Shown in pieces: positions 11,416 through 38,152 of a stretch of 52,056 nucleotides of DNA. A program made the position numbers and the translations under genes. Each line of letters starts with the position of its first letter. The stretch's first letter is position 1. Source of the DNA: a virus. The stretch spans positions 1 through 52,056 of IMG/VR virus record IMGVR_UViG_3300042566_000050. One strand, 5' to 3'. The notes under the pieces were generated by a model. That model searched no databases. It was not told the DNA's origin and saw only the letters and a program-made list of their open reading frames with translations.

Positions 11416-11575
11416 GAAGGGGCAGGGGTTCTTTATCCCCTGCCTAGACCATGCCGCCATGCGTGAGCTTGGCTTAAAGAAAGCAGTCCTTTGCCGCATA
11501 CTAGATGCCCGTGCTATCACGGGCATCCACAACGGCTTTACTGGGGTACTGTTCTATCGACCGCCCCGCGCATAG
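11375..11575 (+). CDS. small phage protein, 66 aa
   Basis: A short protein with FPWEKLEKGQGFFIP near the start and GFTGVLFYRPP at the end. That W-x-x-L-x-x-G-x-x-F-F-x-P...YR layout recurs in short phage proteins of unknown function, possibly DNA-binding. It starts inside the primase end and runs 38 bases past the stop of the convergent 2918-residue gene. Two perfect hairpins lie inside it, so its codons are doubly constrained. There is no obvious ribosome site, so translation may depend on coupling to the primase. Confidence 0.6.
   Translation: MKVSSIHFPWEKLEKGQGFFIPCLDHAAMRELGLKKAVLCRILDARAITGIHNGFTGVLFYRPPRA
11421..11444. terminator. perfect 8-bp hairpin just after the primase stop
   Basis: GGCAGGGG (11421-11428) pairs with CCCCTGCC (11437-11444) across an eight-base loop. 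It begins six bases after the primase stop and lies in the convergent zone. No U-run follows on either strand, so a classic intrinsic terminator is not supported. It may slow polymerase, protect RNA 3' ends or act with Rho. Confidence 0.35.
11504..11527. terminator. perfect 10-bp hairpin at the convergent gene junction
   Basis: GATGCCCGTG (11504-11513) pairs perfectly with CACGGGCATC (11518-11527) around a CTAT loop. It lies 11 bases beyond the stop of the 2918-residue gene on the minus strand and inside the 66-residue plus-strand gene. It lacks a U-run in both directions. The position suggests it ends or stabilises the late transcript, with an equal effect on the early transcript. Confidence 0.4.
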
Positions 11576-17500: not shown

Positions 17501-20294
17501 TATAGCGGTCACGAATTTGATCCAGACCTTCTTGGATGGCCATGGCCGCGGCGTAAGGGTTGCCAAATGTACGGCGCCCTTGTGTGCGTGATTCTCTAGA
17601 GGGGTAACCAAAAGGATAGCCAGCTTCGTTAGTAAACTCTCCAGACAGTTCTTGTGCGGGAGTAAGTTGTGGCTCCTTGCTAGTACCCTTGTTATACATG
17701 TCGCGGGTATCGCCAAAGCGTGTAATCAGATCACGCAACTCAATGTTGGCTTCGCGCTCAACAGCAATACGCTCTTGGTCCGTAAGCTTCTGCCCACGCT
17801 CAAACTCAACCTCTTTAACAAGACTGTCAACCACTTTTTGACGGGCGGCATCTAGTTCTTCCTGTTTGGCACGGCCTTTGTTGTAGCGGCTAACAATACG
17901 CACCACATCCGCATACGCTTCTTCACGGGCATCGGCCACAGCTTGGCGCTGGGCAACCTTTTCTGGCATCCGTGTGCCACCAAGCGTAGTCTCCATAGAC
18001 TGCTTGGACTCGTCCAGCATCCGATTAATTTCATCTTCAGGCACGCCTTCAGCTCGCATGCGATCAAGATCAACTTGATCCAACTGGCCTGTTCTGGAAA
18101 TACGGCGGGGTTGCCCTTCAACGCCAAGCTCTGCGGTCAGGCGTTTGATTTCGTCTTGATTACCAGAAGCATAGGCACGGTCCAGCGCTTCCATTTGTTG
18201 TTGGCGCTCACGCTTGGCATCCATGTCAGCCAAGATTTCTTTGAGGCGTGCAATCTCAGGCTTGTTGCGAGAGGCTTGGGCGATCTGCAACTCAGCGGCA
18301 ATACGAGCTCTGGACTTATCCGCGGCGGGCAATGTACCGCGCTGAACACCGCTACGCAAACTGGGGGAGCCAAACAACTCGCCTTGGTCTTGGAACGGCT
18401 GGTTGCGCGGGATGTTCGCCATGTCGGCGACTTCTTTGTCTGTAAAACCTTCGCGGCGCTGTAAGTCAAGCGTATCCAAGTCTTCCAGATAGCTTGTAAC
18501 TCCGGGGGCTCCGGCAGGCGCAACAGGCGGCTTTTCCCCCTGTATTTTTAAATCTTCTGTACGGGCGGCAAATTCTGCCTTAGCTTGCTTGTCTAGTTCT
18601 TTGCCCAACAGTCTGCGCAGAGTGTCTTGCTCATTAGTCTTTAGTCCGGGCAACGGCAGGTTTTGGTCAACAATCAAACGCGCTCTATACGGGTCCTGCA
18701 GAAGATACGCAATGTAGTCGTCCACATGTGCTTGTTTGTTACCCGATGTCTGGCTTTCTGCCAAACGCATACGATCGTTAGCGTATTTAGTAATCTCTTG
18801 CGCAGAAGGCGGCTTCGTTTGCGCTGCGGCCGCTAGTGCTGCTGCCCTCTCTTTGGGCGTTAAAATTTGCTGTTCGTAGTAGCCAATGTTGGCAAGGTCT
18901 GCTGACAGCTCTTCTTGTGTTTTTACAGTGCCTTTCTTTTTTGATTCAGCAACTGTATCGGTCTGCTCCATCATGTAGTCGTATGGAGACATGCCGGCAA
19001 TACGGGCCTTCTCTGCGTCTTTGATAGCTTGTTCTGCAAGCTGTTCACGCATACCCTTGGTGCGGCGGTACTCAGGTGTCAGCTCTTTAAGCTGCTCACG
19101 CAGACTATTGACTTCTGCTTGATTTTCTTTATAGATAGCCCACTCTTCCGGTGTGCCAGTATCTTTGTTAGGTTTCTTAAGCTCACCGCGCTTTTGTTGG
19201 TACTGTGCCAACAATGCCTCGTATCTCTGGCCAAGCTCTGCGGCGTACTCAGGCGTTTGTTTCTGCGCTTCCAGCTTGTCGGCTTCTTCTTGGGCTTTCT
19301 TGGCTTCTTCTTCACGTTGTACGCGAGCTTCTTCTTGCTTGCGCACCATGACTTCACCACGCGCACCAGCACGCTCAGACAAACGACCAGCCGCACCTAT
19401 CGGGGCAAGCAGACCAACTTGGTAAGCAGTCTCTCCGTACTCTTTAAGCGCATCAGCATCAGTCAGGGACAAGCCTGCTTGCGCACGCTCAAGCATCTGC
19501 TGGGTAATCTCTGTTGGGATTTCAGCCAAAGCGCCAGTAGCCGTACCTTTAGCCAAAGTGGCCAGCAGTTTTTCATCTGCCAGTTTTGTAACTTCTGCGG
19601 CAGATTTACCAAGCAGAGCTTTTTCAGGAATGCCTGTGAGCTTACTAACAAGGCGGCCGCCCAAGGGGATCAATGTACCTGCAACGTCCAAGGCAGCTTG
19701 AGGAAGGGCTGCGGCTCCGGCAGCTCCGGTGTCAATTTTTAGTGCTTCGCCACGGGCTTTTTGCTCTGCGGCTTGACGCTCAACGTTACCGCCAAACTGC
19801 TGGAATAAAGAAGGAACTGCCGCGCCTGCAAGACCGCCAACAACCGTACCAACAGGACCAGCTAACGAACCAAGTGCCGCGCCAGCACGAGCAGTACCGA
19901 ATGTGGCCGCAAGGTTAGGCGCTTGTTCCGCAAGTGCCGCAGGGATTTGACTAATGGCTTCGCCAGCGGCTGGCAACAGGCCACGTTCTTCATACGCTTT
20001 CTTAACCTTGTCAAGGCTGACTTGGTCAGCGTATTTTTGGGAAATCTTTTCACCGCGCTCAAGTCCTGCCTGCGCGGCTTCTTCGGCGGAGCCAGTAAGC
20101 GCACCCAACGCGGTACGGCCAGAAGAAATTAAAGACTCAAGGCCTTTGCTTGCCGCGGCCCCAAGGCCTTCTTTTGGTTTGAGCTGTTTATAGTTTGCTT
20201 GAACAAATGCAACAACTTCATCAGGAGATGCGCCGGGAGGGCCCTCTACACTATAAATACGACCATCGGGTCCTTCTACTTTGTATATGGGCAT
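11538..20294 (-). CDS. giant polyvalent (ejected) protein with HExxH peptidase and LPD38-like region
   Basis: A 2918-residue protein, last gene of the late block. It opens with MPIYKVEGPDGRIYSVEGP, an N-terminal module I know from many phage giant proteins. Then come an Ala/Gly-rich, membrane-like stretch (about 125-215), long charged coiled coils (about 1100-1850), and a zinc-peptidase site LHEGVH (H1942, E1943, H1946) with NEFAAEA near 1994-2000 as a likely third ligand. The C-terminal segment of about 2500-2800 (GASPSIHMANSLIPFFNAQ, then LPIPFEIGYIFKALPEAL) resembles the LPD38 domain of polyvalent proteins. Such proteins are packaged and injected with DNA. Its place beside the transglycosylase matches T7 gp14-16. 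No polymerase motifs of an N4-type virion RNA polymerase were seen. AGGA lies about ten bases before ATG. Confidence 0.85.
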   Translation of the reverse strand: MPIYKVEGPDGRIYSVEGPPGASPDEVVAFVQANYKQLKPKEGLGAAASKGLESLISSGRTALGALTGSAEEAAQAGLERGEKISQKYADQVSLDKVKKAYEERGLLPAAGEAISQIPAALAEQAPNLAATFGTARAGAALGSLAGPVGTVVGGLAGAAVPSLFQQFGGNVERQAAEQKARGEALKIDTGAAGAAALPQAALDVAGTLIPLGGRLVSKLTGIPEKALLGKSAAEVTKLADEKLLATLAKGTATGALAEIPTEITQQMLERAQAGLSLTDADALKEYGETAYQVGLLAPIGAAGRLSERAGARGEVMVRKQEEARVQREEEAKKAQEEADKLEAQKQTPEYAAELGQRYEALLAQYQQKRGELKKPNKDTGTPEEWAIYKENQAEVNSLREQLKELTPEYRRTKGMREQLAEQAIKDAEKARIAGMSPYDYMMEQTDTVAESKKKGTVKTQEELSADLANIGYYEQQILTPKERAAALAAAAQTKPPSAQEITKYANDRMRLAESQTSGNKQAHVDDYIAYLLQDPYRARLIVDQNLPLPGLKTNEQDTLRRLLGKELDKQAKAEFAARTEDLKIQGEKPPVAPAGAPGVTSYLEDLDTLDLQRREGFTDKEVADMANIPRNQPFQDQGELFGSPSLRSGVQRGTLPAADKSRARIAAELQIAQASRNKPEIARLKEILADMDAKRERQQQMEALDRAYASGNQDEIKRLTAELGVEGQPRRISRTGQLDQVDLDRMRAEGVPEDEINRMLDESKQSMETTLGGTRMPEKVAQRQAVADAREEAYADVVRIVSRYNKGRAKQEELDAARQKVVDSLVKEVEFERGQKLTDQERIAVEREANIELRDLITRFGDTRDMYNKGTSKEPQLTPAQELSGEFTNEAGYPFGYPSRESRTQGRRTFGNPYAAAMAIQEGLDQIRDRYISPEGPGVTRTYAPETTSPEALLKQLDGTLANDKTSPEVRKLAARIGDNWREVQANAAVGEETALPPSRRGTLPTTLADDISQWLYSVSIGQESKEFRDRVEERLDAIERAKLSETDVQTRETAWGTAAKPVTAIQEDLFSDKEYSGYKFANYAEFDKFLGSDALQQMRSAIGLGRPTLTRLLDRVRVFSNKAAALRKQSDAMVEKYDKIRADKEAQLEQLKQMNAGDLAQQKRELETAQQMLKEAQENQRQLVNRLDSELFGLQAQYIQAATALEFSIKTSEDISKAIAANVNNFTGKEEAALQEVLEAKEKLATAIKQTYMTVHKGEGERLAQQVKEVKEGVTFDEAFRGIKETKKVLAAQQAVIDATTKWRRLYALNQSQSRIVKFLDQDLNLQMQLQAEIAKFDGLSQNMLDAGLALTLAKNTQDRNVQNRTALKKARQEISTAQNLVEESEKRIAEQQADIDKLRSELGVTDYKINHRFSEDSTTGITIRAATDLEKDLVRALGPVADAARNIEKMAQNAINKFMLGRREGFPVTPETQLDRENRDAEVKRIENERNNRLASLEGERISFDKRRKLAEKLNATPEAYADLDATIDQANTELEQLVKDERLINEHLAKAKEDKKWAIANKVELEIYSRNIADYEAMLGDVVSMRGQLEKEKKDAEDAKERLGDAEQTISRIFSNEVEYDLAGNPIQSVAAAVMESAQKRLAKVEENIKNRTTSSQESGISPELRTSRIKELNKAKREKQQLLDKLSAQTGITRKNIQLGTETESVLPGTRLDARKIGPVVKKTVTAGNVRTGDVTTTEERKLSTQNKVTQSGQTRPITSKQAQRQANKDTELQRITDRLNYLEDLDRRNDAALETATAAGDTARVNKLTGNQARIAAEIEAKRDELASLGNITKIQPSTKKLLQLAATSSQGPALKDEVDTEKSAAAIMQNISTSTNDEINRAIAERLKMLLGNTEVRLVDDLRGDNGEAVYGTAASNGSFIELDKTYGLNEQTALHEGVHAGVERVLNLPEDQLTPEQLAAKKELVAIYNALKADKSMPYPELVTSLNEFAAEALTSPKLRTYMQSKPWTLKYMWDAFKSVILRLLGVKTPTNMSEAAIAAVDRLMTKVPRPTEADMTLDQPRLNRARDSEFDDIVDISNKMVARQKTWSESIKVNATGLAFETQLVDRFAGFERLSKVMDKLKGIQMMYYLRMYDQRMNFVAQSAANGALQIVEKVRADGQKEYLIESRPGASLRGVSEILKGASDVMGGADNASRAFTSYMAALRAKRVGLDKLNFSGTITQAELDRVLATVEGNKTIKDVFERARQEYNEYNRGLVNFAVSAGAIRKADAEALLKSNDYIPFYRERNGVVELMIGGENPIRIGNIKEQPYLQELVGGDAPIMDFMVSSVQNTNMMVDMALRNLATKNAVFELKNMDMAKITDKAISGPDVIKFKVDGEDRFAQVDTDRAGVPADILVKGMEGIPTQMPFALRVLAAPASFLRKAVTATPVYAARQLFRDSLAAPLLSGADFFPVTGALRQIGSATKGTLESRGITGGQVFTGGAADITDIMRRIASGKSGWSDFVSKAESISMEADALSRRAQYNSYIKQGLSEMEATYMALESMNFTKRGASPSIHMANSLIPFFNAQIQGLNVLYKSMTGKMPFNERLKVQEKLLTRGLMIAAGTLAYAAMMQDDEAYQNATPEQKYGNWFVRIPGVEEAVRLPIPFEIGYIFKALPEALYNTMVNERGGEQAVQAFRQILLNTIPGGSSFGIPQAMRPAIEAGLGKSFYTGRDIMSPHEQKLLPEAQFRENTSQIAKSIGATAGVSPIILEQLVQGYTGSLGLAFLQAISMPFGKSDSPEKAFKRLSEMPVVGTVFQPNDAGGIINMAYDRMNEFSKVKSTVDDLIERGEKAKALELINTKANEYAAGEIAHDFTSTMGELTQYERAIRASNLTPEQKRERLDEIRKIKIRYADTMRGAVDRTVPQ

Positions 20295-23365: not shown

Positions 23366-25741
23366 TTATGCGGGAAGATGTTTCTCAGAACGTGAGTTGG
23401 CGGCTACTTTGCCCTTACCAACAGTCTTGCCCCGAGCTTTTTGAATGCGGTCCATCATGGCGTACAACTTACGTGCGCCAGCTTCTGTAGAGCCGTTACC
23501 CAGCTCAGACACAATACGTGCGGGCACTACGAACTCACCATCAGCAAGACGTGCGGGGTGTTTCTTACGGCCAATCGTAGCAGGGATGCTGTCAGACACG
23601 CCGTCTCCGGGACCTTTGAGCAAACGGCCACCATCAGAGTAACCGCCCAGTGCACCAAGACCGCCAAGGGCGTAGCGGGGCATCATGCCGCCGTTGGCGT
23701 AGCCCATCAAACCACCGTTGGCATTACCGGCGTAATCGTAGCGGTCTTCGTCAATATTATCGTCACTCTCAGCTTCTATAAATCTGTCGCTACCACCACC
23801 AATGGTACCGGCACCACCATCGTCATTGCCAATGTATGTTGGTTCGCCGGGGTATGAGCCAAACGCGTCTGGCAGGCCTTGTTGTTGCACACTGTCTGTT
23901 TCGCCAGTGTACGTGTTGTTACCGCTGTTTAGCGAGTTGTCACCCGCCATAGAGCCGTCGTAGTATCCCGAGTTGTCAACGTTTTCCCAAGGCTGAACTT
24001 CATATTCTGTGTTGTCATAGGGCTGATCGTATGGATCGCCTTGAGGAGGTGTATAGGGCTGATCGTATGGATCGCCTTGATATGGTACAGGCTCTGGCAC
24101 ACCCGTGTTCCCATAACCGGGCTCGAAGAAGTTTGGATCAACTGGCTCTGGGTCAGGAATATAGGGCGGGTTATACACCGGGTCAGGGTTGTAAGGGTCC
24201 GACGGCTCAGGGTAACGAATAGGGTCAGGCACGTCTGGGTCAGGCTCAAATGGTGGCGGCTCTGGCTCTGGCTCTGGGTAACGAATAGGGTCAGGCACGT
24301 CTGGGTCAGGCTCAAATGGTGGCGGCTCAACTGGCTCAGGCTCGTAAGGTGGCGGCTCCCAAGGCAGTACAGGCTCAGGCTCTGGCTCTGGCTCAGGGTA
24401 GGGGTATGGATCAGGCGGCATAGGCTCAGGATCAGGCTCTGGCTCTGGGTAACGAATAGGGTCAGGATCTGTTGGGTCAGGCTCAAATGGCGGTGGCTCA
24501 ATAGGATCTGGATCAATGTACGTAGGGGGAGTATAGACTCGAGGGGGTGGCGTAGTTGGCGCAGAAGTTGGTTCTGTAACGCCAGTAGTTGGAGTAGTGG
24601 AAGTAGTAGTACCCGTAGTAGGTGTAGGTGTAGGTGTTGGGGCAGGGGGTTGAACTGTTGCCACAGGAGCAACTGCTGAACTAGCTGTATTACCCATCAA
24701 ATAGTCGTACGCATCCTTAGACTGGCCAGACAGGGTGTTAAATCTGGCATACGGATCGTTTGTATTTTGAGCTGGGGCCTGTGCTTGGGCTTGTGCTTGT
24801 GACTGCGCTTGTTGTGCCTGCGCGTATAAAGCGGGGTCTGCTCTTTGTTCTACTTGTTTTAAAAGACTGCGTAAAATGCCGCCGCCGGCGAGCGCCACAA
24901 TACCGCCGCTGGCCATGCCGGGTGGGAGCTGCTGTCCTAGACCTGCTGGGGGTGCGGATGGTGCGGGGGGTGCGGTCTCCCCTTTACGGATAAAGTCAGG
25001 GAACTGACGAGCGCCCCACTCACTGGCCAACACGGGGTCCATTGCTTTGACTGTGCGGGTATTAGCGTCGTATTGGTATGGTCGAATGTATCCCTTATAC
25101 TGGGATGTAGGCATTTTGGTCGTTGTGGGGACCATGGCGTCAGCAATAAACGGAGACGCGGCGGCAAGGCCTGCCTTCCAATTGTCTTTGGCAAATTGTC
25201 CAAACGCAGAAGGGGTGTCCGTAACGGCTTTAAATCCAGCTCCAATTTTGTCTAGGTTTGATGTAGCCGCAGCGTTGGCGGCGGGGGCAGTGGCGGCATT
25301 TTGAAAACCTAAAGCCTGTGCTTGAGCATCTGTCAAAGAGGTTGCTAAATTAGCACTTTGTGCCCCCACAGCATTTGCTCCAGCCCCCATAAATGCTTGG
25401 CCTAGACCTGCACCACCATAAGCACCAAGACCTGCCATCAAGCCTTTAGACAAACTTCCAGTAGCCAAAGCCGTGACGCCGCCGACTGCTAGTCCAGCGC
25501 CTGCGGCACTCATCAAACCAAAACCAGCGGGGCCTAATGCAAAGCCTGCAATCATGGGCAAAAGCTTCTTCAAGAAGCCAGCTTCAGGCAAACCTGTGTC
25601 GGGGTTGATGGTTAGTGAACCGCCATTTTTCATGGCCAATGCCTGCAGACTCGCCACTTCTTCGGGAGTCATGTGAACAAGCATGGAGTCAGAGCCACGC
25701 CCTTTGGTGGCCATGTGGTTGGCTAATACGTGAAGGCTCAT
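23366..25741 (-). CDS. P/E/D-repeat virion protein
   Basis: A 791-residue protein in three parts. The first (about 55-180) is Gly/Ala-rich and hydrophobic (FALGPAGFGLMSAAGAGLAV), possibly membrane-inserting. The middle (about 380-600) is a Pro/Glu/Asp/Tyr-rich repeat including three copies of PPPFEPDP...DPIRYPEP, likely a stiff extended arm. The end (about 700-791) has Gly-rich MGYANGGMMPRYALGG and ADGEFVVPARIVSELGNGS. I recognise this C-terminal piece from other phages' ejection-region proteins. A GAGAGG ribosome site precedes the ATG. It is probably a virion protein delivered with the giant protein. ATG codons at about residues 10 and 20 are possible later starts. Confidence 0.65.
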   Translation of the reverse strand: MSLHVLANHMATKGRGSDSMLVHMTPEEVASLQALAMKNGGSLTINPDTGLPEAGFLKKLLPMIAGFALGPAGFGLMSAAGAGLAVGGVTALATGSLSKGLMAGLGAYGGAGLGQAFMGAGANAVGAQSANLATSLTDAQAQALGFQNAATAPAANAAATSNLDKIGAGFKAVTDTPSAFGQFAKDNWKAGLAAASPFIADAMVPTTTKMPTSQYKGYIRPYQYDANTRTVKAMDPVLASEWGARQFPDFIRKGETAPPAPSAPPAGLGQQLPPGMASGGIVALAGGGILRSLLKQVEQRADPALYAQAQQAQSQAQAQAQAPAQNTNDPYARFNTLSGQSKDAYDYLMGNTASSAVAPVATVQPPAPTPTPTPTTGTTTSTTPTTGVTEPTSAPTTPPPRVYTPPTYIDPDPIEPPPFEPDPTDPDPIRYPEPEPDPEPMPPDPYPYPEPEPEPEPVLPWEPPPYEPEPVEPPPFEPDPDVPDPIRYPEPEPEPPPFEPDPDVPDPIRYPEPSDPYNPDPVYNPPYIPDPEPVDPNFFEPGYGNTGVPEPVPYQGDPYDQPYTPPQGDPYDQPYDNTEYEVQPWENVDNSGYYDGSMAGDNSLNSGNNTYTGETDSVQQQGLPDAFGSYPGEPTYIGNDDGGAGTIGGGSDRFIEAESDDNIDEDRYDYAGNANGGLMGYANGGMMPRYALGGLGALGGYSDGGRLLKGPGDGVSDSIPATIGRKKHPARLADGEFVVPARIVSELGNGSTEAGARKLYAMMDRIQKARGKTVGKGKVAANSRSEKHLPA
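24210..24499. repeat. coding direct repeats, 53 bp, in the P/E/D protein
   Basis: A 53-base block starting GGGTAACGAATAGGGTCAGG occurs exactly at 24210-24262 and 24276-24328 (66-base period, 22 codons), with a diverged third copy at 24447-24499. The repeats keep the reading frame. They could change copy number by slippage or recombination and so vary the length of the protein's proline-rich arm. Confidence 0.85.
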
Positions 25742-25775: not shown

Positions 25776-26048
25776 TCATGTTGACGTCTTTATGCGAAGC
25801 ATTTGGCTTGTTGCTTGTACACCATCTTGTGTGTCTCTGTAAACATCGCCTAAACGTAAGTTGGGTAAATCCGCATCAGTAGGCAGCGTAGCTAAATCTA
25901 AATTTAACGTAGTTCCGCCCATATCGCCGGGGTTAGACAGCTGGTTAAAAAACAGACGCAAGATATTGTTTAGCTGATCTTGATACCTGCGCTCGTACTC
26001 GTTGGGGGCCAACGGTAAGTTTGGTGGGGTTACATTTAGTTCAGCCAT
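25776..26048 (-). CDS. small helical structural protein, 90 aa
   Basis: A 90-residue protein with APNEYERRYQDQLNNILRLF in the middle (a helix, probably coiled) and a Leu/Asp-rich end (LPNLRLGDVYRDTQDG). It overlaps the tail nozzle-like gene by one base and lies just before the ejection proteins. Similar short proteins sit at this place in other phages, as far as I recall. Probable minor virion protein; exact role unknown. Confidence 0.6.
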   Translation of the reverse strand: MAELNVTPPNLPLAPNEYERRYQDQLNNILRLFFNQLSNPGDMGGTTLNLDLATLPTDADLPNLRLGDVYRDTQDGVQATSQMLRIKTST

Positions 26049-28126
26049 CAGCGTCTTCCATCCGCACGAATATCAATACGAGGAGCGCCCAACTGCCAAG
26101 CAGTGTTGATTTGGTTAGAACTGATCTTAAAGATCATCTGGCGACCACGCAAGCGTGTGTAAATCTGACCCGTGAACTCTTCCGTAATGTTGTACGTACT
26201 GCTTGAAGCCACAGGCTGGCCTGCATCACTTGTTACGCCAGAGCCTGAGTTAGCCAAACCAAACAATTCCATGGTCACTGTTGGCGTAGTGCCAGATGGG
26301 GAGTTTGTAGAGTTCTCAAAGGTCAAGTCTGGCAAGATCCGCCATACAAAACCAAAGTTGTGGCCGTCGCCAATATCAAACTCAGACGAAGAAATATAAG
26401 CATTAAGCGGCAGAACTTCGGGGGTCTCAACGTCGTTCAGCCCAAACTCATGGTTGACCAAGTTGTAGCTGTACGTGGCCGCAATCGGTGTTGGCAATAG
26501 CCCTGAATCAAGCCAAGCAGTACGCGCCATGGTTCCGTAGTACCAGATTTTCTCGACGTAGTTGTAAATCACATACTTGTCTACAGTCGTGCTGCTGCCA
26601 GAGCAATAGAACCACCAGACTTCATTGAAGCCTTCGTTAGTACCGCTGAAAATCTGAAGCGTTTGTTCTGGGTTCAGGTCTTGGAAAATGTAGCGGCGCA
26701 AGTCGCAGTTAAGCGTTTGTACACGGCCATCGTATGCGTAGAACTTGTCCACGCCCATCCAGAAAATAATACCTGAAGCAATCACAGCCGCGTTGGGGCT
26801 GATGATAGAGATGTTGTCACCCAAAAGCTGAGACGCCCAGACATACGGAGGGCCAAGGTACTGGAGTGAATACGCGCTTGAGTCAGTAAACACCACAATC
26901 TCTTGACGAGCCTGCACAGTCGTAATGATCTGCGAGCCGTGGGATAGTCGGGTAAACCCTGCCTGATTGGTGGGGTCTGGCGTCCAGTTATAGGGGTCGT
27001 TCTGGCCAGACCAACGGATCAGCATAGGATCAATTGCACTAGAGCCGTAGTCGTTTGTACCAAACACCATCACAAAACGTGAAGCATCTGAGACAGTCAG
27101 CGTGTTTTGCACAATCGGCGCATCAACAATGTTTGAGATGTAAACGCCCGAGCCAGTAGATGTGGTGCTGACTTCGTTGCCCGCCGCGTTAAGGAGACCA
27201 AAAGTCAAGCCGTCAACATTGAACGCATAGTACGTAGTTGCCACAACAATCCCGGTTGGCAAAGATGTCGTAGCGGCAAACTGAAGCGCAGCGCCTTCGG
27301 TAAATGCAACCGTGGAAGTCACGACAGTAGGCACACCCGTCACAGCGCTGTTGGTAAACGTCACATTCCCGCCCAGCGTGTTCAAAGCTACGCCTCGGCT
27401 AGACAAGCCTGCGGTGGCATCCCAATAATACACCCCGCCGCCGCGGGGACCAAACACAAGGTCTTCACCGTAGTTAATCTGGCTCCAAATTTGCAAAGCG
27501 CTGGTACTCGTAGTACCTGTGCCCCAAGGACCTTCGCCCCATCCGCCTGCACCCCAACCTGTCAAAGGAACCGCGTAGGCCGGGCCAGCATTGATTTGGT
27601 ACGCGGCAACGACAGCGGAGCCGCCATAAGAACCGGCAGGAATTGCCGACGGCACTGTGATGATAAAAGAGTCAAGGCTTACAACAGTAAGTTGGTACTC
27701 GGCATTCCATGTTGAAGCGTATGTGCCTGTTGCGCCACTGAAGGTAACAAACGAGCCGGTAGTAGCGCCATGCGCTATAGAACTTACTACAACTGTAGTT
27801 GTGCCGTCAGCCGTGAATGGGTTTGCCCCCAACGTAACTGTGGAGCGGATGGGTGTGATGTCGTTGTAAACGCCGCCCTTTTCAATGTAGAACTTAGTGT
27901 TTGTTCCGACACCAACCAAATTCAAAAATCCAAGCGTTACCCAGTTCCACAATGAGCGGCACACACCGTTAAATGTGTATTCAGAAACCTGCTCCCAACC
28001 ACCAATGACTTCAGGGTTGCCTTGACGGAAACGAATTTTGTCGCAGTCGTACCAACCACCTTCGGTGGTATAGCGCGTATTCTCTTTATTTACGCCGGGC
28101 TTAAACAGGATTTTTTGTAATGGCAT
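26048..28126 (-). CDS. tail nozzle / stabilisation protein (P22 gp10-like)
   Basis: A 692-residue, strand-rich protein. Its start, EGGWYDCDKIRFRQGNPEVI followed by GGWE, matches the opening of phage tail nozzle or 'stabilisation' proteins (Phage_stabilise family, P22 gp10; T7 gp12 has the same role). Middle parts contain repeated Gly/Thr/Val strands typical of beta-propeller-like or Ig-like virion proteins, and WYYGTMARTAWLDSG is also typical. It should form the lower part of the short tail. It is followed directly by ejection genes, as expected. Assignment is by motif recognition only. Confidence 0.6.
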   Translation of the reverse strand: MPLQKILFKPGVNKENTRYTTEGGWYDCDKIRFRQGNPEVIGGWEQVSEYTFNGVCRSLWNWVTLGFLNLVGVGTNTKFYIEKGGVYNDITPIRSTVTLGANPFTADGTTTVVVSSIAHGATTGSFVTFSGATGTYASTWNAEYQLTVVSLDSFIITVPSAIPAGSYGGSAVVAAYQINAGPAYAVPLTGWGAGGWGEGPWGTGTTSTSALQIWSQINYGEDLVFGPRGGGVYYWDATAGLSSRGVALNTLGGNVTFTNSAVTGVPTVVTSTVAFTEGAALQFAATTSLPTGIVVATTYYAFNVDGLTFGLLNAAGNEVSTTSTGSGVYISNIVDAPIVQNTLTVSDASRFVMVFGTNDYGSSAIDPMLIRWSGQNDPYNWTPDPTNQAGFTRLSHGSQIITTVQARQEIVVFTDSSAYSLQYLGPPYVWASQLLGDNISIISPNAAVIASGIIFWMGVDKFYAYDGRVQTLNCDLRRYIFQDLNPEQTLQIFSGTNEGFNEVWWFYCSGSSTTVDKYVIYNYVEKIWYYGTMARTAWLDSGLLPTPIAATYSYNLVNHEFGLNDVETPEVLPLNAYISSSEFDIGDGHNFGFVWRILPDLTFENSTNSPSGTTPTVTMELFGLANSGSGVTSDAGQPVASSSTYNITEEFTGQIYTRLRGRQMIFKISSNQINTAWQLGAPRIDIRADGRR

Positions 28127-28156: not shown

Positions 28157-28585
28157 TCAAGCATAAAGCCGTGTGCCTGTTTTATCAATAATCAGCGCTT
28201 GTTTTCTTGGCTTGGCGTCTGGTGTGTTTGGAATGCTCACATGGGTCCAGCGGTCAAACTCTCGAATGACTTGGTCGTAGGGCAGCCCAGACGCAATGAT
28301 GGTTTTGACCACTTCATCAGGGGTCAGTTGAGGAACTCGGATGTCCACAGCACAACCAATACGATGCTGGCTAGTATCTTTACTGCCCACAGCATCATTG
28401 ACTTGCTTGCTTCTAAAAGCCGAGTTAACCATAACAGGTCTTCCGCCCAAGGCAGTTTTGACTTCCTCAAGGAAGGCGGCGAGTCGCTTAATGTTCTCCA
28501 GCTCGGCTTCATTGGGGGTGTTGTCATACTGTCTGTGGTCAGTGTGCGTGAGTTCTTCGAGTGTAAAGTGTGGCGTCAGGTTCAT
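28157..28585 (-). CDS. endolysin, M15-type peptidase
   Basis: A 142-residue peptidoglycan peptidase of the M15_3 (D-Ala-D-Ala carboxypeptidase-like) family. Visible motifs are VNSAFRSKQVN (53-63), SQHRIGCAVDI with zinc ligands H74 and D81, then YDQVIRE (103-109) and WTHVS with zinc ligand H115. It has no signal peptide, so it depends on a holin. Its start overlaps the holin gene's stop, giving a compact lysis unit. It most likely cuts the peptide cross-links at lysis. Confidence 0.9.
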   Translation of the reverse strand: MNLTPHFTLEELTHTDHRQYDNTPNEAELENIKRLAAFLEEVKTALGGRPVMVNSAFRSKQVNDAVGSKDTSQHRIGCAVDIRVPQLTPDEVVKTIIASGLPYDQVIREFDRWTHVSIPNTPDAKPRKQALIIDKTGTRLYA

Positions 28586-28992
28586 TTTTTACCTTTCATA
28601 TCCATGATTTTCTCAAGAGTGCGGCCACCAAAGTAGAAGGACATGACCAGCATACCCCACTGCCCCAGCAGTTCAACAAATGCGTCAGCAATGTCAATTA
28701 CCGAAGCGTCTAAGATTGCCAGCAGCAAGTACGCCACCAGAATGTAAACCAGCGTCATGGGCCGGATGTTCTTAGACAGCCATGAATCCGACGACATATC
28801 CGCTTTCAGGCGGTCGGTCAGGTTGTTTTGCTCAGTCTTGTACAGTTCGGTTTCGTTGGCCATCCTTGCTAATTCGCCATCTTGTGCCATTTTTGCAAGG
28901 TCAAGTTGCGCCTTGGCTTTGGCCTCTGGGTCAGGAATCAGCTTGTCGATGAGCTTGCCACCCACGTTCAAAAGTGCGTCTAGTCCAATCAT
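28582..28992 (-). CDS. holin, GTA_holin_3TM type
   Basis: A 136-residue protein. The start, LLNVGGKLIDKLIPDPEAKA, then a charged helix, and NIRPMTLVYILVAYLLLAI match the GTA_holin_3TM family as I know it. Two clear membrane segments are at about residues 79-95 and 104-121. The third, expected by family name, is not evident. It should form lesions in the inner membrane for the M15 endolysin, whose gene follows with a four-base overlap. The upstream gene encodes a second probable holin. Confidence 0.75.
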   Translation of the reverse strand: MIGLDALLNVGGKLIDKLIPDPEAKAKAQLDLAKMAQDGELARMANETELYKTEQNNLTDRLKADMSSDSWLSKNIRPMTLVYILVAYLLLAILDASVIDIADAFVELLGQWGMLVMSFYFGGRTLEKIMDMKGKK

Positions 28993-29600
28993 TGTTTAGC
29001 CCTCGATAACATCGTACTTGCAATTTGCAACATCCCTTTGGCCTTGTATAAGTCACTAGGTTCTTTGTCCCAGCCAATGGTAATTTGCCCCACAAACCTG
29101 CCCTGCTCTGGCGGCACACTGACACGGCAACCAAAGGTCATGCCTTTCTCAATGTACCAAAGCCCAATTTCACTCTGCGCCACAGCGTATTCGCTACACG
29201 GTATCTCATTGGCCATCAGCGCAACCACATCACGGTTGTTAGACGAACTCTGTGTAAACAGCCCTACATCCAGACCATCATGCGTCTTATCCCTACCTTC
29301 ACGAGTGTAAGCCCGAAACAGAACTCTTGTACCAAACAACGGGTTAACTTTGAAGATTGCGATCACGGTTGCGTCTGTGTTCTTAAACAAATGCGCCGCA
29401 ACATCCTCGGCCCTGTCTTCCGCAATCATTGGCAGTTTTCTGTTTTCCTTGTACGCCTCAAACAGGAACGACTGGTTCTGCCAAACAAAGTACCCAGCAA
29501 AAGCAAAAACCGCCATGAGTATCAGCGCAAACAGCTTGAACGGGCTATCCACATAGGACAACACCTTGCTCAATATATCTGATGGCTTCTCGTCACTCAT
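28989..29600 (-). CDS. T4 gpT-like holin (class III)
   Basis: A 203-residue protein with a short cytoplasmic start, one membrane segment (about 22-40) and a 160-residue outer domain, the topology of the T4 holin T. From memory of T4 T, both start with a PSDIL...VL helix, have a W...SFxFExYK boundary after the membrane segment, and end in GxITxxW...AxxxLxRAK. Length is close too (T is 218 residues). C135 and C158 lie in the outer domain and could form a disulfide. It overlaps the GTA-type holin gene and a tiny membrane protein gene. If right, lysis timing could be set by outer-domain contacts as in T4. Confidence 0.7.
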   Translation of the reverse strand: MSDEKPSDILSKVLSYVDSPFKLFALILMAVFAFAGYFVWQNQSFLFEAYKENRKLPMIAEDRAEDVAAHLFKNTDATVIAIFKVNPLFGTRVLFRAYTREGRDKTHDGLDVGLFTQSSSNNRDVVALMANEIPCSEYAVAQSEIGLWYIEKGMTFGCRVSVPPEQGRFVGQITIGWDKEPSDLYKAKGMLQIASTMLSRAKQ

Positions 29601-29746
29601 AGACCAAACATCCCCAGTATCTTGTTTACAACCTTGTCAGCCAGATCATCTGGCAGAAAGCGCAGTAGCCCCAGCACCCACCAAACAATGCAAAGCCTGA
29701 CAAAGACTTTGAGAAACATGTCAAACTGTTTCTGGTACTCATTCAC
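29597..29746 (-). CDS. tiny membrane protein in the lysis cassette, 49 aa
   Basis: A 49-residue frame fills the gap between two lysis-region genes. It starts at GTG 29746-29744, which overlaps the upstream stop (GTGA), and its TGA overlaps the ATG of the T-like holin (ATGA), the typical signs of coupling. AAGG lies upstream at usual distance. The protein has one hydrophobic segment (about 11-30, VFVRLCIVWWVLGLLRF) and an amphipathic end (LPDDLADKVV). It could be an antiholin or a pinholin-like partner. It was not predicted as a long frame, so the call rests on overlap and composition. Confidence 0.55.
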   Translation of the reverse strand: MNEYQKQFDMFLKVFVRLCIVWWVLGLLRFLPDDLADKVVNKILGMFGL

Positions 29747-30237
29747 CGACCACACCTTGTCTTGGCGCATAGGTCTTGTATCTCAGCAATGCCCCAACCA
29801 ACTGCGCCGAGGAGCATCACAATGATGACGACACCAAACGCCCATGCCAATTGCTCTTGCTCTTCTTCTTTGCGCTTCTTCTCTTCTTCCTTGGCTTGCC
29901 TAGCTAAGTGAGCGTCTTCCAAATCCATCTGCTGCTGGCGCTGTTTAATTTTCTGCCACACATCCGCACGGCCAGTGGCCTGAAACAGCATCATCAACTC
30001 TTGCTCAAACCGCTTGGCCTCATCCAGAGCCATCTCAATCTGAAGCGCAGTGCCAAGGTTTGACTTATTCCCAGACCTCTTGGCCTCAACCATCGCCCGT
30101 GTAGCAACGCTCTTGGCGTCAAACATCTTGGCGATAGACGGAGCCAAGCCAGCTAGATCGTTAGCGACCTTGCTGGCCTTTTTGACTACACTTATTGCAC
30201 TTTGTAGTCCTGCTAGCGCCGTCATCGGGTCAATCAC
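29743..30237 (-). CDS. coiled-coil protein with C-terminal membrane segment
   Basis: A 164-residue protein. It starts MIDPMTALAGLQSAISVVKK, a start I have seen in other phage proteins near lysis genes. A helix region (60-105) and a highly charged coil (EEEKKRKEEEQEQ, about 117-129) are followed by one membrane segment (about 131-150) and a short Cys-containing tail. The orientation (cytoplasmic coil, C-terminal anchor) is opposite to Rz-type inner spanins, so I do not call it a spanin. A role in lysis or at the membrane is inferred only from its place upstream of the lysis cassette. Confidence 0.6.
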   Translation of the reverse strand: MIDPMTALAGLQSAISVVKKASKVANDLAGLAPSIAKMFDAKSVATRAMVEAKRSGNKSNLGTALQIEMALDEAKRFEQELMMLFQATGRADVWQKIKQRQQQMDLEDAHLARQAKEEEKKRKEEEQEQLAWAFGVVIIVMLLGAVGWGIAEIQDLCAKTRCGR

Positions 30238-30855: not shown

Positions 30856-32454
30856 TTACTCCTTGGCTTTTAACTGCTTTTCCAAAGACACAACACGCTT
30901 GGCCAACTCAACCACAGCCGCAAGCGCGGCGTTGCCGTAAGACACACCAAGCAAGCCATTTCTTTTCTCAACCGCATCGGGCATAACCTTTTGCAACGAA
31001 CCAGCGCCAACACCAACTTGTGTTTGCTGTCTGTCTATACGGTCATAGATGCCGTTTTGTACCTGCGCCAATTGCTCAATGAAGTCGTCAGGGAATCCGC
31101 GCCAGTTCATCTTCAGCGCTTCGTCAGAGTAAGCCGTCACGTTGCCGTTGGAATATAGCGCGCCTGCAGTCAGGGTTGTGCCGTCAAAAGTTAAGTTTCC
31201 AGAGCCAACCGCTGTACCGCCGCTGTTGTAAATAACTTGTCCAGACGAGCCACCAATCGGGCCAGTGGGGCCCGTCGGTCCTGTGGGTCCTGTGGGTCCT
31301 GTGGGGCCAACTCCGCCGGTAGGTCCGGGGGCTCCTGTATTACCAGTCAAACCTGTGGGGCCAGCGGGTCCTGTAGGTCCGGGCGAGCCGTTTGTACCTG
31401 ATGGGCCAGTAGGTCCTGTAGGTCCGGGGGGTCCGGGAACAGTTGAGCCGGGTCCAGTAGGTCCAGTGGGGCCAGTAGGGCCGGGACCGCCAGTCGGTCC
31501 GGGGGGTCCGGCAACAGTTGAAGCAGGGCCTGTGGGTCCAGTCGGTCCAGTAGGGCCGGGAGGTCCGGGAACAGTCGAGCCGGGTCCTGTGGGTCCGGGA
31601 GCACCAGTAGGGCCAGTGGGTCCAGTAGCGCCTTGTGGCACTACAAAGTCAAACACCGCCGCTGACGGAGTGCCTGCGTTTGTAACCGCCGCAGGTCCAG
31701 TAGAAGTTGTGCCAACGGCAACCGTGGCAGCCGCACCGCTTGGCCCAGTGGGTCCCGTAGGTCCGGGGTTGCCCGTAGGTCCGGGGCCACCAGTGGGGCC
31801 GGTAGGACCCGTAGGTCCGGTGGGTCCTGTGGGACCAGTAGGTCCGGGAGCGCCTTGGCCGCCGGGAGACCATGTGCCATCACCACGCCAGTATGTAGCA
31901 GCCGAAGCGTTAGTGCCGCTGTTCAGATTAGTAACGGGCAAGTTACCTGTAACATTTGTAGCAAGGTTGACGAACGTCGTGGCGCTTGTGCCTGTACCGC
32001 CAGATGTGATTGGCAGGGGTGTGCCCAGAGCCAGCGTAGACAAATAGTCGATTTGGTTGCCAACGTCAGTGCCGTTGTTGTAGACCACCGTGCGCTTGCC
32101 AGACGGCACAGACACACCTGTTTGGCCAGAGACCTTGACGGTGATTGCAAAAGAGTCGTTGTTAATAATCAGGTATGGCTTCTGGATTGCGGGGACGTTT
32201 AGCGTACCGGCAGCAGACAAGCATCCTGAAGAGATCACCAAGCACAGCGCCCGAGCATTTTGAGCCGAGGTTGTGTTGGACAGCGTGAGTGTGGCTACGT
32301 TGGTCGTGAAGTTGGCGGAAGTTAGTGTGGCCATACCAACAATGGCTTGCTCAACGGCGGTGCCGATATTGCTGTTGGTTGTCGTGCCCCACACACCCGG
32401 CTGCTCGCCCGTCGTGATTAGCTCAAACTTTAAATTGGAAAAGGTGCTTGGCAT
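30856..32454 (-). CDS. collagen-like tail fibre with S74 chaperone domain
   Basis: A 532-residue fibre. The N-terminal part (1-150; [20 protein letters not shown]) is a virion-attachment module known from other phages. Residues about 199-400 are Gly-x-y repeats, mostly Gly-Pro-Thr, with interruptions, including one of about 40 residues that ends in a VFDFVVPQG stretch. From about 441 it has an S74-type intramolecular chaperone: SDEALKMNW with the Ser and Lys expected of the self-cleaving pair, ending in a coiled coil. The collagen part should form a triple helix and the S74 domain fold it, then cut itself off. It binds the host surface. A dioxygenase gene lies two genes upstream. Confidence 0.88.
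31256..31860. repeat. collagen Gly-Pro-Thr coding repeats
   Basis: About 600 bases of nine-base units that encode Gly-x-y, seen on the plus strand as GGTCCTGTGGGTCCTGTGGG-like runs. The repeat is coding on the minus strand. The opposite strand is also open and would give Gly-Pro-Val repeats, which I take as a mirror effect. Length change by slippage is plausible. Confidence 0.9.
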
Positions 32455-34570: not shown

Positions 34571-37500
34571 TTAGTTACATTTTGCCACAAGCGCCTCAAG
34601 AGCGGCAATCCGTTTATCTTGCTCAAGCACACGTTTGGCAAGTTGAATAGCTGCGACCAAAGCAGCGCCGCCGTAGTTAACAGACATTTTATCGTGCTCA
34701 TCTGTTGGCGCAGAGTATGGTAGAAGTGTGTGTAACGACTGGGCAGATACACCGTCTTGGGTAAGTTCAATATCTGTGCGGTCGTAGGTGCCGTGTTTTA
34801 CTTCAGCAAGTTGCTCAACAAAGTCAGCGGGGTAATCTCGCCAGTTTGTCTTTACGCGCTCATCAGAGTAGGCAACAACGTTACCTTCCGAATAAACGCC
34901 TTTAATGACATAAATACCGTACGAAGAAGACGTTGCTGACGTGCCAATACCCATGCAGTTGTTGCTAAGGTTGTGATAAAAATACCATCTGCCATTGGCT
35001 TCTCGGTACACACCGCCGTTACCTGCGCTGTCGTACATAAATCCAGCCACAGAGCTGTACGTATCAAAAATGCCGCTGTAACCGTTTCTACTACCGGATA
35101 TTGCCCAAGTGGTGTATGTAGATGCGTTGTTAGGATACCAATGAGCCCCGTTTGCACTGGGTGCGTACAAGCCAAAGAAACCGTTTAGTTGCAGCCAAGT
35201 ATCAACTTGGTTGTACGTACTACCGCGCTGCCCAACAAATGTGCTCGCCGCGTAGCCCCCTAGTTGGTCCGAAGTACGCGTAGAATCTACACGAAGTCCG
35301 TATGTGCTACCGCCGTTCCAACCCATCAAAGTCGGGTACGTCGCAGACCAATTAACTGCTGGGTTTGTGTTGTTACAACCACTACCGCTAGGTGTAGTGC
35401 TTTGGGATGCGTCAAAAATAACGTGGCTGTTGCCGTAGTTTTTCCACGCAAGCATTCCTACGACATTATTGATAACAGTGTTATCGTTCCAGCTAGACTG
35501 CCCGCGAGCCGGGACTGCGTAACTAGAAACATTGCCTGCGGTGAGAACTTGACTGCCACCTTGTTGAAGCGCTCCGCTAGTAACGTTGACTGTGCTGCCT
35601 GAAATTTGCAGGTTGGATGCGCTGCCTGCAATATTTAAAGTTGCGTATGTTCCGGAGTCTCGGCTGTAGCAAAGAACATAGCCTTGGCCCCCACTAACGC
35701 CTACTTCAGTTGCAAGCGCCGTAGATGCACCACCTGCGTACCACCCAGTAAAACGACCTTGCCCGGTGGTTGATATGTCTCCAGAAAATGCTCGCTGAGA
35801 AGTGGTAGTCGAATTACCACTCAACGAACCAGAAAAAGTTGGTGCTGTTACCGTTCCCCCAAATCTTGCAGCCCCGTCACTAGAACGAATTTCAGCAACA
35901 ACAGTAGGTTGGCCAGTAGCTGAACCTGACTCAAAAGTCCAACCGTAATTCGCAACGTTTTCAATAAAACTACGAAGCGCCCAACTTGTTACAAGCGTTC
36001 CGCTTGGAGCTGTGATGTTGCCGGTCGGCCCTGCGCCGGTTGCTCCAGCGGGAGACATGTAATCAGCCCACGCCGTATAACTACCTGAATACCAGCTAAG
36101 GCCAGATTGGGCAGTTCCGGCACGGTTAAGGTAGTGTTGTGGCGCAGTTAACGCTCCGCTAAAAGCACCCGTAGTTGCGGCAAGATTTGTCGCGCTTAAA
36201 GTTCCACTGCTTGAAGTAATTGTTACCGCCGCGCAAGAATACGCTCGTGAAGACCCCGCATAAGGGCCAACTGCACCTTCATTTGCAAGCCAACAAACCG
36301 GATAAGTCGCACTATCTGTGCGGCCAAAGTATGCTTGCAAAAGACCAGCAATAGTAGCTGAGCTAGCCGTACCCGCAGAACCAGCAGCCCCTGTAATATT
36401 AATACCCCAAGTACCAGAAGCACCACCGCCTGTTAATGTTGGGCTAAAGTTGTTGTAGTTGTTGCTGTTTAGATAGCGTACCCAGCTAGACCATGTACCG
36501 GCGTAACGCCCCCGCATGAACAGCTCATTTGCGGGTGAGGCATAAGCAATAGCCATTTGCGTAATTTGGCCAGTGCCATCATTACTTGCATATTCAATGT
36601 TAAATGGGTGGTAGTAGTTACCACCGCCGGGGCCATTTGATGCAGTGCCCAGCAAAAGAGTAGTGCCCACGCCGGGAATGGTATTAGACGAATCATCCCA
36701 GTTTAGTACGCCGCCAGTACTTGTGGTGGCAAACAACCACTTAGAAAACGACGTAGATGCAGGGACAGTTGTCGCACTTGTTTTACCAGCAGTAGTTGCA
36801 CTCGCAGCGCTACCGGTGATGTTGATGCCCCAAGTACCAGAAGCCCCTGTACCGGTTAGTGTAGGCGCGTAGGAGTTGAAGTTGTTTGAAGTAAGAACAA
36901 CGCCGTTGTTATATCTCAGCGAACCAGAACCATCCCCGGAATTGATATCAAGGTTACCGCCTGTAGCGCGTATGTTCCAAGAGCGAGTGCCTGATTGGTC
37001 AAACCTTAAAAAGTTGCCGCCAAGTTGGAGATCTCCAGTCAAAGCTCCGCCAGAAAGCGGTAAATAGTTAGCCGCAGTTGTAGCCGTAGCCGCATTGCCC
37101 GTAATATTTATACCCCAAGTACCGCTAGCGCCTGAACCTGTTGTTGATGGAACATTCAAACTAGACTGCGCACCCGCCGCAGTGGTCGCGCCAGTACCAC
37201 CAGCCGTGACAGGCAGAGTGCCAGAGGTTAGTGTTGAAGAGCTGTTAGCGTAAACTGCGCCGCCGCTTGTGTAGCTTGTGAGACCTGTGCCGCCGTAGCC
37301 TGTGGCAATCGTGCCGCCCTGCCATGTGCCGCCAGAGATAATCGACGTGCCAAGATTAAAAGCGTTTGTGCCAAAAGTTACGCCTTCTGGGAGATACGCG
37401 TGAAGGTCCCAAGTCCCGCCAGTTGTGCTGTTGAGTGTTAAAAAGACTGCGCTCGCACCGCCACTAGGAATAGTTCCAATAGTGGTACCCGCAAAATTTG

Positions 37501-38152
37501 CAAGAGTTAGTGTGCCTGTTGCTAGGTTGTTAAAAACAAACGCTACCCCTGTTGTCAGAGTGGTTGCGTCAGGTAGCGTGTAAGTCTGGCCGCCAGTCCC
37601 AACAAGAGTATGGATATAGCTTGATGCCGCCGTCAGTGCGGTGGTCCCACCAGCAGCCGTTGTGTTTGTGTTTGACTGGTTTACTCTGTTGACCGCAATG
37701 TTTTGATTGCTATCACGCAGCACCACAGAGTTTGCGCCAGAAGAAGTAGTTACACCTGTGCCACCATAAGCTACGCCAACGGTTGAGCCTTGCCATACAC
37801 CAGACGACACTGTGCCCAGAGGACTGACGTTGTCGCTTGCATCCAGATTGACAGACTTCTCTGCGGGGTATGTCAGGAAAATGCTCTTTGTTCCAGCCGC
37901 CAATGTGATTGGCGAAGTGTTGCCGCTGGAGTTAGACAGAACCGTAGTACGCGCAAGCGTGGGGCCAGACGTAGAGTACGTACCAATACCCACTTCCCAT
38001 GCAGAACCGTCTACGATGGTGTAGTAGCAAGTATTCCCATTGCCAACGACGGCAAACGACTGAAAGCCGGGGACAGCACCGGCCAGCGTTACTGAGCCAG
38101 TGCCTGTTGTTGTCGTTGTCTCTTGGACACGATCAAAAAGTGCCAGAGCCAT
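34571..38152 (-). CDS. large tail fibre with S74 chaperone domain
   Basis: A 1193-residue fibre. Residues 1-100 (ALALFDRVQETTTTTGTGSV, later GWEVGIGTY-like WEVGIGTYST) are a virion-attachment module seen in other phages. The body is Gly/Ser/Thr-rich, with three copies of GASGTWGINITG at about 342, 435 and 577, which are typical of trimeric beta-helix fibres. From about 1090 it has an S74-type chaperone (SDERVKTNWRDYPADFVEQL), clearly related to that of the collagen-like fibre. Ser and Lys of the self-cleavage pair are present. It should be the main receptor-binding fibre and mature by self-cut. Confidence 0.88.
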   Translation of the reverse strand: MALALFDRVQETTTTTGTGSVTLAGAVPGFQSFAVVGNGNTCYYTIVDGSAWEVGIGTYSTSGPTLARTTVLSNSSGNTSPITLAAGTKSIFLTYPAEKSVNLDASDNVSPLGTVSSGVWQGSTVGVAYGGTGVTTSSGANSVVLRDSNQNIAVNRVNQSNTNTTAAGGTTALTAASSYIHTLVGTGGQTYTLPDATTLTTGVAFVFNNLATGTLTLANFAGTTIGTIPSGGASAVFLTLNSTTGGTWDLHAYLPEGVTFGTNAFNLGTSIISGGTWQGGTIATGYGGTGLTSYTSGGAVYANSSSTLTSGTLPVTAGGTGATTAAGAQSSLNVPSTTGSGASGTWGINITGNAATATTAANYLPLSGGALTGDLQLGGNFLRFDQSGTRSWNIRATGGNLDINSGDGSGSLRYNNGVVLTSNNFNSYAPTLTGTGASGTWGINITGSAASATTAGKTSATTVPASTSFSKWLFATTSTGGVLNWDDSSNTIPGVGTTLLLGTASNGPGGGNYYHPFNIEYASNDGTGQITQMAIAYASPANELFMRGRYAGTWSSWVRYLNSNNYNNFSPTLTGGGASGTWGINITGAAGSAGTASSATIAGLLQAYFGRTDSATYPVCWLANEGAVGPYAGSSRAYSCAAVTITSSSGTLSATNLAATTGAFSGALTAPQHYLNRAGTAQSGLSWYSGSYTAWADYMSPAGATGAGPTGNITAPSGTLVTSWALRSFIENVANYGWTFESGSATGQPTVVAEIRSSDGAARFGGTVTAPTFSGSLSGNSTTTSQRAFSGDISTTGQGRFTGWYAGGASTALATEVGVSGGQGYVLCYSRDSGTYATLNIAGSASNLQISGSTVNVTSGALQQGGSQVLTAGNVSSYAVPARGQSSWNDNTVINNVVGMLAWKNYGNSHVIFDASQSTTPSGSGCNNTNPAVNWSATYPTLMGWNGGSTYGLRVDSTRTSDQLGGYAASTFVGQRGSTYNQVDTWLQLNGFFGLYAPSANGAHWYPNNASTYTTWAISGSRNGYSGIFDTYSSVAGFMYDSAGNGGVYREANGRWYFYHNLSNNCMGIGTSATSSSYGIYVIKGVYSEGNVVAYSDERVKTNWRDYPADFVEQLAEVKHGTYDRTDIELTQDGVSAQSLHTLLPYSAPTDEHDKMSVNYGGAALVAAIQLAKRVLEQDKRIAALEALVAKCN

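Follow-up and report, generated by a model that had tools for sequence, protein, structure and literature searches.

A tailed phage from an environmental sample carries a late lysis cassette in which a holin of the GTA_holin_3TM type (PF11351; hereafter the 3TM holin) lies next to p203, a protein predicted to share the helix plan and fold of the class III holin T of phage T4. This pairing of a T-like protein with a 3TM holin is real, and it is common among environmental phages. The explanation that we favour, with moderate confidence, is that the cassette holds two holins, in which p203 would act as a T-like holin beside the 3TM holin.

The virus record is 52,056 bases long and was analysed in full; this whole stretch of DNA is called the window below. 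Polymerase, helicase and primase genes occupy its plus strand, and portal, large terminase and structural genes its minus strand. A preliminary description had placed here a lysis cassette of five frames joined by start-stop overlaps, an account that the analysis bears out. All five frames were confirmed on the minus strand, from 30237 to 28157, in the transcription order p164, p57, p203, 3TM holin, M15 endolysin. As read from the sequence, p164 and the 49-residue frame of p57 meet in a GTGA overlap, and the three subsequent junctions (p57/p203, p203/3TM holin and 3TM holin/M15) are ATGA overlaps. The features are as follows.

28157 to 28585, minus strand: M15 endolysin of 142 amino acids, matching Peptidase_M15_3 (Pfam profile, 1.1e-16) and the endolysin family phrog_894 (PHROGs, 1.4e-34), with hydropathy and an ATGA overlap as further evidence
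28582 to 28992, minus strand: GTA_holin_3TM-type holin of 136 amino acids, matching PF11351 (4.2e-11) and the holin family phrog_3427 (PHROGs, 5.8e-26)
28989 to 29600, minus strand: p203, a T-like holin candidate of the class III plan, based on an AlphaFold2 model, Foldseek and a match to phrog_31287 (9.5e-20)
29597 to 29770, minus strand: p57, a small protein of 57 or 49 amino acids with a single transmembrane (TM) segment (68 homologues; dN/dS 0.12)
29743 to 30237, minus strand: p164, a coiled-coil protein with a C-terminal TM segment, from hydropathy and a match to phrog_32327 (6.3e-9)

The cassette is flanked by a collagen-like tail gene (30856-32454, then a gene for 198 amino acids) and by a virion structural gene (26048-28126). 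The tail gene encodes a long collagen-like GPTGPTGP stretch, and the C-terminal end of its product resembles, by eye, an intramolecular chaperone. Elsewhere in the structural half of the minus strand, three large proteins are without a PHROG match at 1e-4 (11538-20294, 2918 amino acids; 34571-38152, 1193 amino acids; 23366-25741, 791 amino acids).

Hydropathy analysis of the M15 endolysin found no signal peptide, TM or other hydrophobic segment. Endolysins that have no membrane segment depend on a hole-forming holin, and this enzyme is therefore expected to need one. The neighbouring protein of 136 amino acids had been proposed to be a GTA-type holin, and the profile comparison suggested as a check of that proposal agrees with it, because the match to GTA_holin_3TM scores 43.9 bits against a curated cut-off of 24.8. 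The protein is built from a coil at its N-terminus and a membrane region at its C-terminus (RPMTLVYILVAYLLL...WGMLVMSFYFGG), where hydropathy gives one long hydrophobic stretch (residues 75-110) and a second, weaker one (near 107-127) can be seen by eye. The holin TeaA of phage ICP1 was assigned to the same family by its authors, and experiments demonstrate that it causes cell lysis and a loss of the proton motive force (PMC7182436). The family to which TeaA belongs, phrog_1544, adjoins p203 relatives too. A search for homology of p203 or p164 to TeaA or ArrA of ICP1 found none.

The preliminary description had classed p203 as a T-type protein, with traces of the T sequence at each end. Membership in the sequence family finds no support in Pfam, whereas the predicted fold, the helix plan and the conserved positions speak for a T-type protein. 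There is no Pfam match to p203, and the Phage_holin_T profile (PF11031), which had been named as the appropriate check, detects nothing in the window at E<=10; the same profile finds its positive controls, T of phage T4 (1e-119) and T of Vibrio phage Wyman (3e-50). The match of p203 to phrog_31287 is to a family of unknown function, and searches of Pfam, PHROGs and PDB sequences with p203 gave no family beyond it. The traces of T proved weak, given that the match to the T-holin PHROG (phrog_860) is marginal (E=0.058) and covers only residues 8-57, at the TM end. Profile-profile comparison of p203 with eleven T proteins gave, with one alignment, a modest full-length match (78% probability, E 1.8e-5), and a wider alignment gave a match at the TM end only (10%, P 0.003). 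With profile results that are weak or negative, sequence alone does not place p203 in the T family and, judged by this evidence, the protein falls outside Phage_holin_T. It is under strong purifying selection, with a dN/dS of about 0.05.

An AlphaFold2 model of p203, built from 34 sequences (pLDDT 87), consists of an amphipathic helix (residues 6-16), a TM helix (20-41), a bridge helix (43-55) and a GAF-like alpha/beta domain (61-198), and the order of the helices in this model matches that of T4 T. Hydropathy and the modelled helix 20-41 both give a single TM segment followed by a large C-terminal domain, with a predicted N-in/C-out orientation. When the model was compared with 350,542 PDB chains by using Foldseek, chains of T4 holin T (6pxe, 6psk and 6px4; E 1.8e-5 to 1.2e-4) appeared at ranks 3, 8, 9, 18, 22 and 31 of 1106 hits. 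The target-normalised TM-score for T4 T reaches 0.73, which is the highest among the matches listed. The other top PDB matches are mostly GAF domains, and many GAF domains that are not from holins score alike. The best 25 matches to p203 in BFVD include several models annotated as T or class III holins. Other BFVD matches are uncharacterised proteins of Cronobacter phage GAP32 (K4F9M1), Klebsiella phage RaK2 (H6X3V2), Tenacibaculum phage pT24 and Polaribacter phage P12002L, and these may be more T-like holins.

Formation of pores by T4 T needs the cytoplasmic amphipathic helix, F22 at the end of this helix, R34 at the start of the TM segment and the bridge helix, and the globular domain is regulatory and dispensable for pores (PMC12162936). 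The amphipathic helix of p203 relatives has a median moment of 0.49, compared with 0.27 for the null, and ends in tyrosine or tryptophan in 159 of 161 relatives; lysine or arginine marks the start of the TM segment in all 161. Within the p203 family, C135 and C158 are invariant (30/30), and the C-terminal helix of p203 is devoid of cysteine. The cysteines that are invariant in T proteins, C175 and C207, are a pair not kept in p203. On the strength of the modelled plan and fold, p203 probably works like a T-type holin and, as such, would form pores.

The small membrane protein that had been reported as hidden among the larger frames is a real gene. There are 68 homologues of p57 among the relatives and, across 38 distinct sequences, dN/dS is 0.12 in its own frame versus 0.9 and 2.75 in the other two, shifted frames, which reveals purifying selection in the frame of p57. 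Hydropathy gives one TM segment, and no significant family match was found in Pfam or PHROGs. Translation might start at ATG 29770 (57 amino acids), GTG 29755 (52 amino acids) or GTG 29746 (49 amino acids). The last of these, which was the start chosen in the preliminary description, has AAGG 8 bases upstream and is a GTG in 50 of 62 relatives. The product of the first gene, p164, combines a coiled coil with a C-terminal TM segment and a short tail containing two cysteines (hydropathy); its PHROG match is of unknown function, and it adjoins 3TM holins both with and without p203.

A family of small proteins, p77, was also encountered in related cassettes (for example at L104:6567-6836, L118:5588-5875 and L106:6567-6845, where the L numbers denote loci), and its members have a signal peptide and two invariant cysteines. 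The p77 gene overlaps the end of p203 (ATGA-type) in 28 loci and elsewhere precedes 3TM holins without p203, and it is often followed by a gene for a soluble protein of 72-79 amino acids (p78). A Foldseek search with a p77 model gave nothing below an E of 1, RI (6psk_R) was absent among the matches listed, and there was no profile match. The proposal that p77 is an RI-type antiholin specific to p203 was dropped, because p77 also occurs without p203 and its predicted fold gave no match to RI.

Two scans of IMG/VR each detected relatives of p203 in more than 560 stretches, on contigs of 4 to 345 kb. For 66 loci chosen for p203, the 3 kb on each side was analysed, and the resulting counts rest on models built here. 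A 3TM-type holin lies no more than 3 kb from p203 in 58 of these loci (none in the remaining 8), and in most loci it comes directly after p203. The 3TM types counted include phrog_1544, the family of TeaA, and phrog_6637, which lacks a Pfam match and was assigned by its plan and by a weak link to the PF11351-type protein. Endolysins are present within the same distance in 61/66 loci and belong to several unrelated families (M15, GH24, GH108 and GH19). The two holin types side by side had been considered unusual when the cassette was first described, but the 58 loci demonstrate that the arrangement recurs in environmental phages. When 74 loci were instead selected for their 3TM holin, p203 was present in 13 and absent from 61, and two circular relatives (L003 and L005) are without p203 altogether. 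Since the 3TM holin mostly occurs without p203, the latter is an optional component.

The position immediately preceding the 3TM holin can alternatively be taken by p164 or a protein of 95 amino acids with two TM segments. No locus has both the 95-residue protein and p203 (21 versus 185 loci), which is partly a sampling effect. For example, in cassettes that read p77, p78, X, 3TM holin, endolysin, position X is taken by p203 in L141, L146 and L228 and by the 95-residue protein in L225, L235 and L252. An exchangeable as well as optional role for p203 in the membrane would fit these arrangements, and exchange with the 95-residue protein is suggestive only, because this protein is without a significant holin match. 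Its representatives in the p203 slot (L225:5717-6004, L252:4748-5032 and L235:5744-6004) show weak matches to holin families and are possibly another second holin. Two copies of p203 are found close together in L111 (4469-5074 and 6001-6567) and in L114 (2757-3362 and 4283-4849).

Some T4-like phages encode a p203 relative and no recognisable t gene. Cronobacter phage LPCS28 carries rIIA, rIIB, AsiA, spanins, lysozyme and one gene with the annotation lysis-inhibition accessory protein, and has no annotated holin. Its gp097 (L181:44205-44786), on the late strand, is a p203 relative; a profile search of this genome gave no T, and no RI homologue was found. Further relatives occur in S13 (L002:5989-6570) and Ci1 (L004:361-960), for which neither the T profile nor the PF11351 profile gave a match; PF11031 is also negative for S13. 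A hidden T gene in S13 was considered and rejected, because the sole profile match is weak, antisense, contains a stop and lies inside the ribonucleotide reductase gene. A scan of viral contigs with the S13 protein found nothing. The S13 copy of p203 adjoins head genes and not an endolysin. In this group of phages, the strongest candidate for the holin is the p203 relative, and they might also possess another holin that went unrecognised.

These observations suggest how two holins of unrelated build could operate in the same cassette. The M15 peptidoglycan peptidase would stay in the cytoplasm. The N-terminal amphipathic helix of p203 would lie on the cytoplasmic face, the TM helix would cross the membrane, and the bridge helix would carry the GAF-like domain in the periplasm, where a disulfide between C135 and C158 probably locks it. 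If p203 behaves like T4 T, it would accumulate in the membrane until triggering, when its amphipathic helices would line a pore. The 3TM protein, a PF11351-type holin, would be the second of the two, and the endolysin could be released by either. Most probably, basic hole formation would fall to the 3TM holin, since this is the element that constantly accompanies the endolysin in relatives, and p203 would add a pore that has a periplasmic handle for timing.

Alternatively, p203 might be a membrane-tethered periplasmic regulator, either an antiholin or an activator, that times the 3TM protein as the sole holin. Such a role is possible but rather unlikely. It would suit the cassettes without p203 (61 of 74, plus L003 and L005), which indicate that a 3TM holin can suffice, and also the usual position of the 3TM-type holin directly after p203; in ICP1, moreover, an antiholin gene adjoins that of TeaA (PMC7182436). 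However, neither a PF11351 holin nor t was found in S13 and Ci1, which encode a p203 relative, LPCS28 has no T match, and 8 of the 66 p203 loci present no 3TM-type holin within 3 kb. The pore features of T (the amphipathic helix and the equivalents of F22 and R34) are conserved in p203, and the antiholin candidate of ICP1, ORF138, is polytopic and unrelated to it. Another alternative, in which p203 merely travels with late genes and serves as a GAF-type sensor in the periplasm or in superinfection exclusion, is improbable. Generic GAF domains are indeed among the best structural matches, and the S13 copy sits beside head genes and not beside an endolysin, but chains of the T holin are placed as high as the leading GAF matches, endolysins of several unrelated families accompany p203 in 61 of 66 loci, and S13-type phages have no other recognisable T.

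A further proposal, which is compatible with a T-like p203, assigns timing to p57, which would be an antiholin acting on one or other of the holins. The p57 gene is genuine, its product has one TM segment, and it overlaps the start of p203; antiholin genes commonly sit at such an overlapping position (PMC7182436). Many p203 cassettes, however, are without p57 and have p77/p78 or nothing recognised instead, and p57 has no significant family match. We regard this assignment as doubtful.

If p203 is a T-like holin beside the 3TM holin, its significance could extend beyond this cassette. Structural work has established how antiholins control T-type holins through their periplasmic domain, and such holins had been known from phages resembling T4 and T5. 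A tentative extension of our reading, which may well prove wrong, is that p203 represents a widespread, unnamed family of T-like holins, added to or replacing other holins, whose GAF-like domain senses a signal (e.g. superinfection) to give lysis inhibition in the style of T4, and which has replaced T in the LPCS28 group. Through periplasmic sensing by p203, phages with a plain 3TM holin would gain this form of lysis inhibition. If true, the p203 family (more than 500 viral contig stretches) extends T-type control to common environmental phages, and phrog_31287, annotated as 'unknown function', gains a function. The repeated pairing of p203 with a 3TM holin would also make the question of why two holins are used directly testable.

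Among known systems, p203 resembles T4 holin T (class III; PF11031; 6pxe, 6px4 and 6psk) in its predicted amphipathic helix, single TM segment, bridge helix and GAF-like periplasmic domain, in the aromatic and basic residues conserved at the cytoplasmic face, and in being a late gene. The two proteins differ in that p203 has no significant sequence-profile match to T (identity in the structural match is about 13%), has another cysteine pair and usually has a second holin alongside, and an RI-type antiholin was not found. A T-type holin adjoins an M15 endolysin also in the T5-like Vibrio phage Wyman. The coil and C-terminal membrane region of the 136-residue protein are likewise present in ICP1 TeaA, whereas the partner of TeaA is the polytopic candidate antiholin ArrA and the partner here is a T-like protein. 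The pair formed by a PF11351 holin and a T-like holin is not described in the lysis literature cited here, as far as the portions used extend (PMC7182436, PMC12162936, PMC9025707 and PMC13056207). More than one holin-like membrane protein is likewise encoded by phage P1 (LydA, LydC and LydD; PMC9025707) and by mycobacteriophage F1 (LysF1a and LysF1b; PMC13056207). LysF1b differs from p203 in its N-out/C-in orientation, and its authors consider it distinct from class III holins (PMC13056207).
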